The notes below the pieces were generated by a model. It saw only the letters and a list, made by a program, of their open reading frames with translations. It had not been told where the DNA came from and did not search any database. The translations under genes were made by a program, and so were the position numbers. From NCBI GenBank assembly GCA_951799405.1, contig OX637356.1, positions 14,531,229 to 14,595,228 of the forward strand: a DNA stretch of 64,000 bases. The letters run 5' to 3'. Below are positions 52,533-56,170 of this stretch, piece by piece. Source of the DNA: Agapetus fuscipes. Lineage: Eukaryota > Arthropoda > Insecta > Trichoptera > Glossosomatidae. Position 1 is the first letter of the stretch. Every line of letters begins with the position of its first letter.

Positions 52533-52783
52533 TGTGTGACGTCACAACTTTTTTGGGTGCGTAAAAAATGTGGGCAGGCAACCTTCGTTTCTTTTGATTT
52601 TTTTCATCACCTTCTGAATGAAGAATGGTGCACCCTATACACAGATTTTTCACAATGCAAAAACAAGACTTTCCTTTTTGCCCTTCGTGCCTGCAAGAAA
52701 ATAAAGACACAAAATAAGGTTAACTTTTAAACGTAAAAAATTGTACATACCTATTTGTTTCAAATTTCTAAGATTAATAATAC

Positions 52784-53239
52784 TGTTACGTTTTACCTGG
52801 GGGTTCTTTTAATTAAAACACAAGTTTAACACAAGTTAGCTATACAGTTTATTTACACAGACTTTCTTACAATAGATTTATTTTTAACAGACTTATTCTA
52901 ACAGATTTATTTTAACACACTTATTTATTTCGTACAGATTACATTTATTTTACACCATATTGGTCGCCCTAGTAACTAGATATTCCACTGTGTGAGTGCT
53001 TCGAAGACTGACTCGCTTCAGCCGATTGTCGCCCTTCTTATAGCGGAACCTAGGGGCCATTCCAGCCTGCCCTAGAAGGTTCCACTACCACAGTTGTATA
53101 GACGGTTCTGGACATATTTATTTCATGAAGAGTCCATTTCCTACCTACATACACACCTTACAATTACAATCGTCTGGGCCAGAACATTCTCTCAAAACAC
53201 ACGCACACCAACAAGCATCTACCAGTGTATTTCGTTACA
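52784..53239 (-). repeat. 3' LTR of the DEK-carrying element
   Basis: 456 bp, identical by eye to 55324-55779. On the minus strand a TATAAG lies at 53042-53037, followed by several AATAAA signals, so promoter and poly(A) functions are plausible. Confidence 0.92.
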
Positions 53240-54958
53240 TTATCCCCCCCTTAGGCTGTTCCGCCCCGGAACAGTCTTTACTTTAAGAAGGTACGGGCAG
53301 TTTGACCCACAGTTGCATCCAGTGGTCAGGAAAAATGACGTTCCACGGAATTTTCCCCTTAGGGTTTTGCCCGTCATTGCTGGCTGGTGTGGGGGGGGGT
53401 GCTTTCCTCTTGGCGGCCGGCATGGGCGCCTTTCCTTGGTTGGGGGCGCCGCCTTGCGTCCCCGGTCAGCCACCGCTCCTCGGCTCCGCTTGCTCGCCGG
53501 CTCCTGCGTCAAAGGATCAGAATCCTTGGTTGTCGGAGCCGCTCTCCTGCTCGGAAGCGGAGTTCTCACTCTTGCTCTCGTCCTCTGACTCGCTGAGTGG
53601 CTTCCTGCCGCGCCATGCTTGGGTCGTCCCTTCTGCTTGCTCTGCTTGGCTGAGCCCCTGCGGGCGGGGGCGCGGCGCCTGCGGGAGGGAGCGCCCCCTT
53701 CCCCCACTGACGGGTCAAAGTCAGAGTCCGCCTCCTGTCCGGAGCCACTCGGGTTGTACGAGCCATCTGAATCCCCTAATTCATCCCTGCTGACTTTGGG
53801 TCCCCGCACTTTGGTTTCCGGATCTGTTTCATACTCCTCGTTAGAGTAACCTCTCTTGACAATAGCAGCAGCGGACCTTCTGGGCCTGCCTCCCGTGGCC
53901 TCGCCGCGGTCAGTCACCGGCCTCTCCTTCATCAGCCCCCTGGCGTGCGAGGAGACCTGCTTTGGCAGCAGCAGGAAGCCCACCACCCTGCTGACCAGCT
54001 CCGTGGGCGCGCCCCTCTTGTCCAAGCCCAGCTTCTCGCACAGCGTCCGCAGCTGCTTGGGCTCCAGCTTCTGCACCTCCTCCAGCTTGGCCTTGTGCTC
54101 AGGCGTGTCCTTCTCAAACTCGTAGCCCTTGAACTTCTTTTTGTTGCGCTTGATGAGGTTCGTGCGGCACAATTGATTGTACCGGAACTTGAGGTCCTCC
54201 ATCTTGAACCTGGAGATGGCCACCTCCACGTCGGGGATGTAGTCGATGGGGATGCCCCGGCCCGCGGGCACGGGCACCGGCGGCTCCACGGCCTTCTTCT
54301 TCTTGAGAGCCTCCTCCACGGCCTCCGCCGCCTTCTTCTTGGGCGCGGGCTTCTTCTTCACACTGTTGGCCTTCTTGGCCTTGCCCTTCTTGTCCTTGGC
54401 GTCCTCATCCTCCTCCTTGGCGTCCGTCTCCTCCTTCGCATCCTTGTCAGCCTTCACCTCGGCCGAGTCACTCTTGCCGTTTTCAGCCGACTTGACATCT
54501 TTGCCATCTTTGTCATCTTTGCTGTCAGCTGCGTCCTCAGCCTTGAGCTGGCCGTTGTTTTTGGCCTTCAGGTCTCCCTTCCCCAACTTCTGAGACAACT
54601 CATCCTCAGTTGACATATCGGCCTTTTTGTCATCCTGATTATCACTTAATTTTACACTATCAGTGTCCACCGACATTTTTAAGGCTAGGTTTTTAGCCCT
54701 CTCCTCCTTCCAACCAGCTAGGTCTTCCCTCAAGCTCTTGAAGTTGGCAGCCATCTTTGTTTTAAACTCTTCCACGGCTCGCTCGCGGTCCCCTCCAGAC
54801 GCCATGACAAAATATGCCGGGTCTTCGCCTGACTGTTCCAAGGCCTCCATGAGGCGTGCTTGTAAGGCCGCCTTCCCTCCTGAGGTCTCCAGGTCCCTCT
54901 CCAGAAGCTCATTCTTAAGCTCATAGGCTTTGAGGTCCTTGATGTTCACCTTAGCCAT
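53240..54958 (-). CDS. Retrotransposon ORF: SAP gag-like N-terminus fused to a DEK-like chromatin protein
   Basis: 572 codons from an ATG at 54958 to a TAA one base short of the 3' LTR. Residues 6-40 form a SAP motif (LKAYELKNELLERDLETSGG, then KAALQARL), a DNA-binding helix pair that also occurs at the N-terminus of many arthropod LTR-element gag proteins. Residues 60-95 are helical and gag-like. Residues 130-225 are Asp/Glu/Lys-rich and lead to KKKPAPKKK. Residues 236-335 resemble the DEK domain: IPDVEVAISRFKMEDLK, FKGYEFEKDTPEHKAKL and LCEKLGLDKRGAPTELVSR. Residues 355-445 mix acidic SDSD stretches with basic RRRRAP. The last 40 or so (CNCGSNCPYLL to NSLRGG) overlap the purine tract. DEK proteins are nuclear chromatin architectural factors; whether this copy acts so is inference. 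Base composition turns GC-rich from about codon 120. Confidence 0.85.
   Translation of the reverse strand: MAKVNIKDLKAYELKNELLERDLETSGGKAALQARLMEALEQSGEDPAYFVMASGGDRERAVEEFKTKMAANFKSLREDLAGWKEERAKNLALKMSVDTDSVKLSDNQDDKKADMSTEDELSQKLGKGDLKAKNNGQLKAEDAADSKDDKDGKDVKSAENGKSDSAEVKADKDAKEETDAKEEDEDAKDKKGKAKKANSVKKKPAPKKKAAEAVEEALKKKKAVEPPVPVPAGRGIPIDYIPDVEVAISRFKMEDLKFRYNQLCRTNLIKRNKKKFKGYEFEKDTPEHKAKLEEVQKLEPKQLRTLCEKLGLDKRGAPTELVSRVVGFLLLPKQVSSHARGLMKERPVTDRGEATGGRPRRSAAAIVKRGYSNEEYETDPETKVRGPKVSRDELGDSDGSYNPSGSGQEADSDFDPSVGEGGAPSRRRRAPARRGSAKQSKQKGRPKHGAAGSHSASQRTRARVRTPLPSRRAAPTTKDSDPLTQEPASKRSRGAVADRGRKAAPPTKERRPCRPPRGKHPPPHQPAMTGKTLRGKFRGTSFFLTTGCNCGSNCPYLLKVKTVPGRNSLRGG
53243..53253 (-). promoter_or_regulatory. 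Polypurine tract
   Basis: The minus strand reads AAGGGGGGGAT next to the 3' LTR, the expected plus-strand primer. The ORF runs through it and stops at TAA (53242-53240). Confidence 0.7.
53256..53274. other. Short hairpin before the purine tract
   Basis: CTGTTCCG, CCC, CGGAACAG: perfect 8-bp arms within the ORF end. Confidence 0.8.
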
Positions 54959-55307
54959 TTTTTATTTTAACAAAAATTTAAATTTACTTCAAAATAATTT
55001 ACTTCAAAACAAATTATTTTACAAAAAAAATATTTTTAAATTTCAAATAATGATATTAGATAATGATTATTTACTTTGCTTCGTCAGATCGGCTAGCTTT
55101 ACTAACACTAGCACAATATTATTAACACGTTATCTATGCACACTTCAATCAAATTTTTAGCGGGTAACCACACGATCGTTTTTAATTCAAGTTTAATCAG
55201 TTTTATTTAAAACTTTTTTTTTTTTTATTCATTAGTTTTTATTATGTTGTCCAGAAATATTTTTCAATAGTCTTAAGCACAGATTTTTTTGGTACTTGGT
55301 TTTAAAT
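54959..55307 (-). other. 5' leader of the DEK-carrying element
   Basis: AT-rich leader of about 350 bases between primer site and ATG. No upstream ORF of note. It would hold any packaging signal. Confidence 0.6.
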
Positions 55308-55322
55308 CTCACACCGACACCA
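55308..55322 (-). promoter_or_regulatory. Candidate primer binding site
   Basis: The minus strand TGGTGTCGGTGTGAG starts one base after the 5' LTR. The complement ends CACCGACACCA, like a tRNA acceptor end with CCA, and is preceded by a T-arm-like AAATCTCAC. I cannot assign the tRNA with confidence; a Leu type is possible. Confidence 0.65.
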
Positions 55323-55323
55323 T

Positions 55324-55779
55324 TGTTACGTTTTACCTGGGGGTTCTTTTAATTAAAACACAAGTTTAACACAAGTTAGCTATACAGTTTATTTACACAG
55401 ACTTTCTTACAATAGATTTATTTTTAACAGACTTATTCTAACAGATTTATTTTAACACACTTATTTATTTCGTACAGATTACATTTATTTTACACCATAT
55501 TGGTCGCCCTAGTAACTAGATATTCCACTGTGTGAGTGCTTCGAAGACTGACTCGCTTCAGCCGATTGTCGCCCTTCTTATAGCGGAACCTAGGGGCCAT
55601 TCCAGCCTGCCCTAGAAGGTTCCACTACCACAGTTGTATAGACGGTTCTGGACATATTTATTTCATGAAGAGTCCATTTCCTACCTACATACACACCTTA
55701 CAATTACAATCGTCTGGGCCAGAACATTCTCTCAAAACACACGCACACCAACAAGCATCTACCAGTGTATTTCGTTACA
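55324..55779 (-). repeat. 5' LTR of the DEK-carrying element
   Basis: 456 bp, identical by eye to the other LTR. Confidence 0.92.
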
Positions 55780-55888
55780 ATACCTTGTGTATTATATTCT
55801 TGAATTTTTTGTGATATTATTCTTGGAACAAAATTAAAACAAAAGAAGACATGTTTTCAGGGAAGAGTGTTACAAATATTACAAAAAC

Positions 55889-56170
55889 GTGTTACGCCCG
55901 CTAATGACGGGCACTCATGAGTGTCACTTTCGCATGTGCAGATATATAATACTGGGTTTTACCAAATACCAAAAAGAACGGACAAAAAGGTTTTTTAGGC
56001 AAACCTCAACCACTCTTTATAGGGAAGCACCAAGCGCCTTTGAGGTGACTGAGATTTTCGTCAACAAAGTAAAGGAGCAATTGCAGAACTACCTGTTGAC
56101 GTGTAGCGCCAAGCGCTTTTGAGGTGACTGCGGTCATAAAAAGGCGCTATGGAAAAGTGTTTTATTATTA
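55889..56170 (+). repeat. L2-like LINE 3' end, decayed
   Basis: AGCGCTTTTGAGGTGACTGC, then GGCGCTATGGAAAAGTGTTT and TTATTATTA, resembles the coding end and tail of L2-type elements. CACCAAGCGCCTTTGAGGTG at 56027 is a second copy of part of it. Confidence 0.5.

Follow-up and report, generated by a model that had tools for sequence, protein, structure and literature searches.

A Ty3/gypsy-type LTR retrotransposon family carrying a spliced copy of the host DEK gene in the trichopteran Agapetus fuscipes

An LTR element with an intron-free copy of the host DEK gene

The stretch of DNA analysed here, a window of 64,000 nucleotides (nt) from Agapetus fuscipes, carries on its minus strand, at 52784-55779, a long terminal repeat (LTR) retrotransposon of 2,996 bp in which a DEK-family chromatin gene is embedded (Table 1). 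We confirm this observation. An earlier note, made from the letters alone, had listed identical 456-bp LTRs, an ATAC target-site duplication, a primer-site candidate, a purine tract and one open reading frame (ORF) without retroviral-type enzymes, and all of these were seen. The TG..CA LTR pair, the short target duplication, the primer binding site (PBS) and the polypurine tract are features of Ty3/gypsy-type LTR retrotransposons. A scan of the window for tRNA genes found none.

Both domains that the earlier note had proposed to look for with profile models, SAP and DEK, were recovered, by different routes. In Pfam, SAP (4.2e-9, residues 6-41) is the sole row above cut-off for the 572-residue ORF, with two rows below threshold (SAP_new25 and Rio2_N), and no reverse transcriptase (RT), protease or integrase was found in it. 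Because an RT and an integrase of its own were not found, the element is classed as non-autonomous. The DEK domain was recognised through the Protein Data Bank (PDB) structure 2jx3 (2.8e-11, residues 232-335); the earlier note had described residues 236-335 as DEK-like. Pfam returned no DEK row because its DEK model is DEK_C, the C-terminal domain, which is missing from the element.

The intron-containing parent gene that the hypothesis of a host capture called for is present in the same genome. Indeed, a genome search with the DEK_C domain gave three places, none of which is a listed element copy; one is the C-terminal DEK exon at C11, adjoined within 17 kb by upstream DEK exons, and the parent gene thus lies at G000:C11 (loci L048, L051 and L063). 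The other two DEK_C domains, L049 and L050, lie elsewhere in the genome. Host coding exons are numbered from the start-codon exon, counting those found; an acidic exon may exist between exons 3 and 4, and the start of exon 4 is unsettled, as the nearest acceptor would place the exon out of frame.

In the window copy the captured stretch begins in the host 5' untranslated region, 7 nt upstream of the ATG, and stops where exon 9 ends. Over eight of the nine matched pieces, nucleotide identity between element and host is 93-96%; the ninth, which is acidic, reaches 76%, lowered by a 48-nt gap. All eight host introns spanned by this stretch (154-4078 bp as bounded here, GT-AG) are missing from the element. 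Five exon joins match the host at 20-24 of 24 nt, those at introns 2, 3 and 7 are blurred by small insertions or deletions, and exon 8 is read in a frame different from that of the host. As eight introns are gone, the element copy derives from a spliced mRNA. The element therefore holds a spliced copy of the DEK gene of the same insect, captured from the host, and this complementary DNA (cDNA) is joined in frame to gag, as in transducing (gag-host fusion) elements.

The proteins nearest to the element DEK are lepidopteran DEK proteins, those of Eumeta, Scirpophaga, Phthorimaea, Pieris and Danaus being 55-57% identical over residues 226-420; judged by its DEK gene, the host would belong in or close to Lepidoptera. 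With animal DEK the element shares the acidic N-terminus and the SAP-like DEK domain; it differs in the lack of DEK_C, in the additional SAP of Gag and in a 4-residue deletion within the domain. Of the two hallmarks of the DEK family, it thus has the SAP-like domain and not DEK_C.

Table 1. Coordinates of the element and its parts in the window
Feature	Positions	Strand	Remarks
5' LTR	55324..55779	-	456 bp, TGTAACG...CGTAACA; same as the other LTR
3' LTR	52784..53239	-	456 of 456 positions agree with the 5' LTR
Target-site duplication ATAC, left	52780..52783	.	
Target-site duplication ATAC, right	55780..55783	.	
PBS TGGTGTCGGTGTGAGAT	55306..55322	-	1 base inside the 5' LTR
Single ORF, 572 residues: gag N-terminus + DEK + pol relic	53240..54958	-	
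Gag N-terminal part: SAP (residues 6-41) + coiled coil	54684..54958	-	Pfam SAP 4.2e-9; nt identity to autonomous gag
Host DEK cDNA taken up by the element; starts 7 nt upstream of the DEK ATG and stops where host exon 9 ends	53384..54683	-	
DEK pseudo-SAP/SAP domain, residues 232-335	53954..54265	-	4-residue deletion relative to host; PDB 2jx3, 8kcy, 9l1x; host alignment
Relic of the pol C-terminal end, broken CCCH finger, reaching the purine tract	53240..53383	-	76% nt identity to the L062 pol end from 53358 down; first 25 nt (53359-53383) assigned only via comparison with L033
Polypurine tract AAGGGGGGGATAA	53240..53252	-	G-rich, overlaps the ORF stop, at the 3' LTR; from the sequence

Just outside the element, at 56030-56130 of the window, two copies of a CAAGCGC(T/C)TTTGAGGTGACTG-like motif are spaced by about 80 bp.

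A recently amplified family, its relatives and candidate helpers

Sister copies, which the earlier note had proposed to look for, abound: at least 122 distinct loci on 33 contigs carry an open DEK frame (at least 500 residues, no stop). A search with the LTR, in which 40 of 1,089 candidates were scored and all 40 fell in the window or in 24 loci, gave 25 places, comprising 18 LTR pairs, six solo LTRs and one place (L012) too short to judge. Exact 4-bp duplications flank 16 of the 18 pairs (the exceptions being L013 and L026) and all six solo LTRs. Sixteen of the 18 pairs agree in the first 14 nt of the PBS, which L034-L036 share as well; a variant PBS, TGGTGTCAGGTGTGG, was noticed in L022 and L026. 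Furthermore, the junction of LTR end and PBS occurs 208 times in the genome with at most one mismatch, compared with 0 times for the reversed control. Since LTR pairs, duplications, PBS and junctions recur across the genome, the family cannot be a product of chance.

The frame is open over 528-667 residues in 17 of the 18 LTR pairs, which were sampled by LTR and not by frame, L016, with its internal deletion, being the sole exception. When copies were sampled by ORF, 76 of the 76 scored were open over all 572 residues, but these were the best-scoring of 2,738 first-look candidates and are biased to intact ones; in one ORF listing, 5 of 67 copies carry a stop. The LTRs are identical in 12 of the 15 pairs measured, with one difference in two pairs and unequal length in one, and movement has therefore been recent. 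Copies have also been lost through LTR recombination, as the solo LTRs with intact 4-bp duplications (L009, L011, L015, L018, L021 and L029) attest. The basic C-terminal part of the ORF bears an in-frame duplication of about 93-95 residues in L024 and L030. The C-terminal end itself (53240-53450 in the window) varies by frame, with copies of an FLTTGCN type, copies of an IPWNVIFPDHW type and others that end early; since its frame differs, this part is not kept.

The two ends of the fusion come from a Ty3/gypsy-type element. In the earlier note the N-terminal SAP segment looked like arthropod gag, and indeed the first 58 codons or so of the gag part are 87-94% identical in nucleotides to gag in 30 of 30 autonomous-type copies (10 plus 20 loci, among 116 candidates scored). 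The only one of these that was read whole, L062 (the same copy as L058 of the first 10 loci, taken over a longer stretch), has 483-bp LTRs that are 99.6% alike, a gag of 488 residues with SAP, Retrotrans_gag and CCHC, and a pol of 1358 residues with protease, RT, RNase H and integrase, the RT before the integrase. Its pol and the DEK ORF end in the same residues (...KTVPGRNSL.GG), with 76% DNA identity, and in the diverged DEK copy L033 a 234-nt stretch of pol survives, 73% identical to that of L062. The relatives of this SAP-gag type share with the DEK element the SAP/coiled-coil gag start, the pol end, a 4-bp duplication (ATAT in L062) and the LTR terminus CGTAACA. L062 differs in possessing capsid, CCHC, protease, RT, RNase H, integrase and a TARG1-like macro domain, and its LTR and PBS are different ones. 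Elsewhere in the genome, dozens of matches have a pol frame open over 1,422 residues.

The macro domain, TARG1/OARD1-like, lies at the C-terminus of the L062 pol (L062:7100-7705; PDB 2eee and 4j5r, about 6e-11); after it comes a CCCH-like finger, which at 0.0038 stays below the Pfam cut-off. In L084, of another family, Pfam Macro scores 0.025, also below cut-off. A literature search on this pol macro domain found nothing relevant.

Which element could supply the missing enzymes? Hits to the LTR end (100 in number) form 26 same-strand pairs, of which 23 are 2.4-2.9 kb apart, one 4.5 kb and two 6.4 kb. The 6.4-kb pair on C21 (C21:1449433-1455906) agrees with the LTR end at 27 of 29 nt and has an identical junction of LTR end and PBS; by its size, LTR end and PBS it is a candidate helper. 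A search for pol ends, with 150 matches scored, listed none inside this pair. The 6.4-kb and 4.5-kb pairs on C26 contain a pol end. Of the 150 pol ends scored, 50 belong to this C26 family (98-100% over the 133 residues of the query), and three of them are found some 5 kb away from gag ORFs of about 440 residues, whose gag start is 70-84% identical to that of the DEK copy L036.

We consider it very likely that these copies form a helper-dependent Ty3/gypsy-type LTR family which arose from one DEK capture and encodes a fusion of Gag (SAP/coiled coil), DEK and a pol tail. DEK mRNA from this insect, already spliced, would have replaced the gag capsid, the nucleocapsid and nearly all of pol. The element RNA would then most likely be packaged, reverse transcribed and integrated by autonomous gypsy proteins of this genome, the helper proteins presumably acting on the LTR ends, PBS and leader of the element. 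This mobilisation in trans we infer because the copy number is high and the enzymes are absent. Several observations weigh against it. The window LTR is absent from all 30 autonomous-type copies (flanks covered: 1.0-1.5 kb upstream of gag), and the PBS of L062 is unlike that of the window copy. In L084, coding sequence reaches into the region that a 456-bp LTR would occupy, which implies that the C26 element has the same LTR end and not the same LTR length. Among the autonomous elements read, none carries the whole window LTR. The idea of helpers with this LTR beside the SAP-gag copies was tried in the same 30 copies and failed in every one.

Capture ends and origin of the chimera

The diverged copies tell more about the capture. 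In L033, L035 and L036 the gag part extends further (...VAKGTELL) than in the window copy. The left junction reads GGAACAG|AGCTCTTAAAAATG in L033 and, with one base different, GGAACAG|AACTCTTAAAAATG in L035 and L036. On the right, L033 passes from the end of host exon 9, CACACCAG, into pol, where the host reads CACACCAG|gtacaa. L033-L036 and the window type agree in both DEK ends, which is most simply explained by one capture, and we infer a single event. After it, the coiled coil and the pol tail would have been lost and the gag start exchanged; compared with the window copy, L035 and L036 are 82-84% identical from LTR to gag and 92-94% in the DEK part.

The capture ends suggest that splicing or template switching made the chimera. 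Splicing is favoured, because both ends sit on host exon borders: on the left a predicted host splice acceptor, cccacag, directly precedes AGCTCTTAAAAATG, and on the right exon 9 ends at the border given above. An element inserted in the DEK 5' intron may have given rise to a read-through RNA in which the gag part was spliced to the start-codon exon and exon 9 to pol, a scenario to which we grant an even chance. However, microhomology of 3-4 nt at both ends is also compatible with template switching, the host 5' border is predicted from sequence only, and a comparison at 1e-3 of the 3.0 kb preceding that border with the window element and with L062 gave no match. A 141-bp segment in the leader region of L033 (L033:529-669) does match the host DEK 5' intron in inverted orientation, at 96%, and a second match reaches 81%; this repeat common to the L033 locus and the DEK upstream region is probably an unrelated dispersed repeat.

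That the DEK domain is native to the element, with no capture at all, can be dismissed with near certainty: the intron-free element copy beside an intron-containing host gene is decisive against it, DEK is absent from the gag and pol of L062 (the ordinary gag of a relative being the place where the earlier note saw its own possible refutation) and from the SAP-gag protein P0006, and nothing was found in its favour. The interpretation given in the earlier note is, as a whole, supported.

Cargo or tool

What does DEK do in the element? In the leading view, the family is young and DEK rides along as a passenger. The LTRs, the leader and signals for packaging at the start of gag would drive the spread, DEK would be mere cargo and the open frame would reflect nothing but youth; we regard this, in its pure form, as an evenly balanced prospect. 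The competing proposal is a functional chromatin tether, in which the SAP of Gag and a nucleosome-binding DEK hold element RNA or pre-integration complexes at chromatin and selection keeps the fusion. This we hold to be possible but rather unlikely.

The residues speak for cargo. On the element branches (12 copies, four of them chosen by protein score; gapped codons and 33 columns where the host differs from every copy excluded) we counted 82 replacement and 35 silent changes, and compared with a spectrum-matched neutral expectation this gives a ratio of replacement to silent rates (omega) of 1.1 (P 0.72). No protein-level purifying selection is therefore seen. The distinct family variants in codons 1-420, 33 replacement and 15 silent, agree, with a replacement fraction of 0.69 against a neutral 0.67-0.68. 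When the host comparison was polarised, 17 replacements fell on the element side, 3 on the host side and 8 were undecided, and omega was 1.37, 0.82 and 0.59 for an element share of silent changes of 30, 50 and 70% (P 0.84, 0.33 and 0.05). Purifying selection had at one stage been read from pairwise host-element rate ratios (dN/dS) of 0.20-0.25 in 10 copies; we dropped this reading, as the host branch is mixed in and the other omegas are not clearly below neutral. The comparison of copies that the earlier note had called for hence does not support upkeep as a working protein. Cargo would also fit the young LTRs and the C-terminal part, which is variable, with 10.4 variants per 100 bp, and in which part of the reading departs from the DEK frame; of the six gap runs in codons 421-523, two, both from one duplication, are not multiples of three.

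The frame, however, tells against a pure passenger and for the tether. Among 17 copies (L016 excluded), the three gap runs in codons 1-420 are all multiples of three, whereas 23 of 27 in the leader and four of four in the 456-bp 5' LTR break the frame (P 0.005 for the lack of frame-breaking gaps against the LTR yardstick). Variant density is 3.7 per 100 bp in codons 1-420 versus 7.5 in the LTR (Fisher P 0.003), and not one stop occurs among the 117 element-branch changes, where 4.2 would be expected. Moreover, as noted above, nearly all copies sampled regardless of frame are open, and DEK remains while gag starts vary among the DEK subfamilies. The frame thus appears to be kept while the residues drift.

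Structure gives a similarly divided answer. The SAP domain of human DEK binds the nucleosome dyad and linker DNA, according to PMC12263440. In the alignment, read by eye, the element residues matching human K124, K125, K158 and R168 are still basic, as the tether would have it; those at R153 and K144 are not, in host or element alike, and the 4-residue deletion, present in the window type and L036 and absent from L033 and L035, takes out the residues aligned to human R107-H110, in the dyad-contacting region. An AlphaFold model of the DEK domain from seven sequences was poor (mean predicted local distance difference test score of 57) and was not used. Nor do the insertion sites favour the tether: the duplications, mostly NTAN in DEK copies, resemble the ATAT of the autonomous L062, and the earlier suggestion that DEK may influence integration site choice is so far not supported.

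Between these two proposals, a loosely constrained basic/acidic chromatin-binding Gag is possible, and our guess is that the fusion protein is either this or a tolerated open-frame passenger. A bolder idea is that the lineage owes its success to the stolen chromatin protein: Gag SAP-DEK would anchor integration complexes or element RNA on nucleosomes, and DEK would have moved among gypsy backbones that differ in their gag starts, in a clade that already had a TARG1-like macro domain at its pol end; we think it improbable.

Host-gene capture by LTR elements is already known. The maize LTR element Bs1 has a gag part and has lost its enzymes. According to a review (PMC13317346), its hybrid ORF includes segments of host genes, an ATPase gene among them. 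The element described here likewise carries host sequence in a hybrid ORF but, where Bs1 took partial segments of three genes, holds one gene from its start codon; at least 122 of its loci are open and its spread is recent. In acute transforming retroviruses a truncated Gag is fused to a host gene, pol is lost and a helper is needed. Here too a gag N-terminus is joined to a host cDNA, pol is lost and a helper would be required; in contrast, ours is a germline insect element of Ty3/gypsy type with a chromatin protein, and no envelope gene is present in it or in L062. In metazoan LTR-mediated retroposition, finally, host mRNA is copied by the LTR machinery (Tan et al. 2016, as cited in PMC8232201). 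The same copying is seen here, with the difference that the chimera itself has turned into a prolific mobile family. The capture of DEK was not found reported: the literature searches gave no DEK-carrying retroelement among the results listed, protein database searches, in which only candidates sharing short words were scored, gave no second gag-DEK fusion, and a search of a phage collection gave nothing.

In conclusion, a host gene that was captured, the parent with its introns, both ends of the capture, many copies with an open frame, candidate helpers and a diverged copy that retains more of gag and pol all occur in this single genome. Hence, whether the captured gene is cargo or tool, and whether it was captured via splicing or template switching, can be tested directly. 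For the insect itself, more than 100 additional DEK-like frames in the germline could, if expressed, affect its chromatin.

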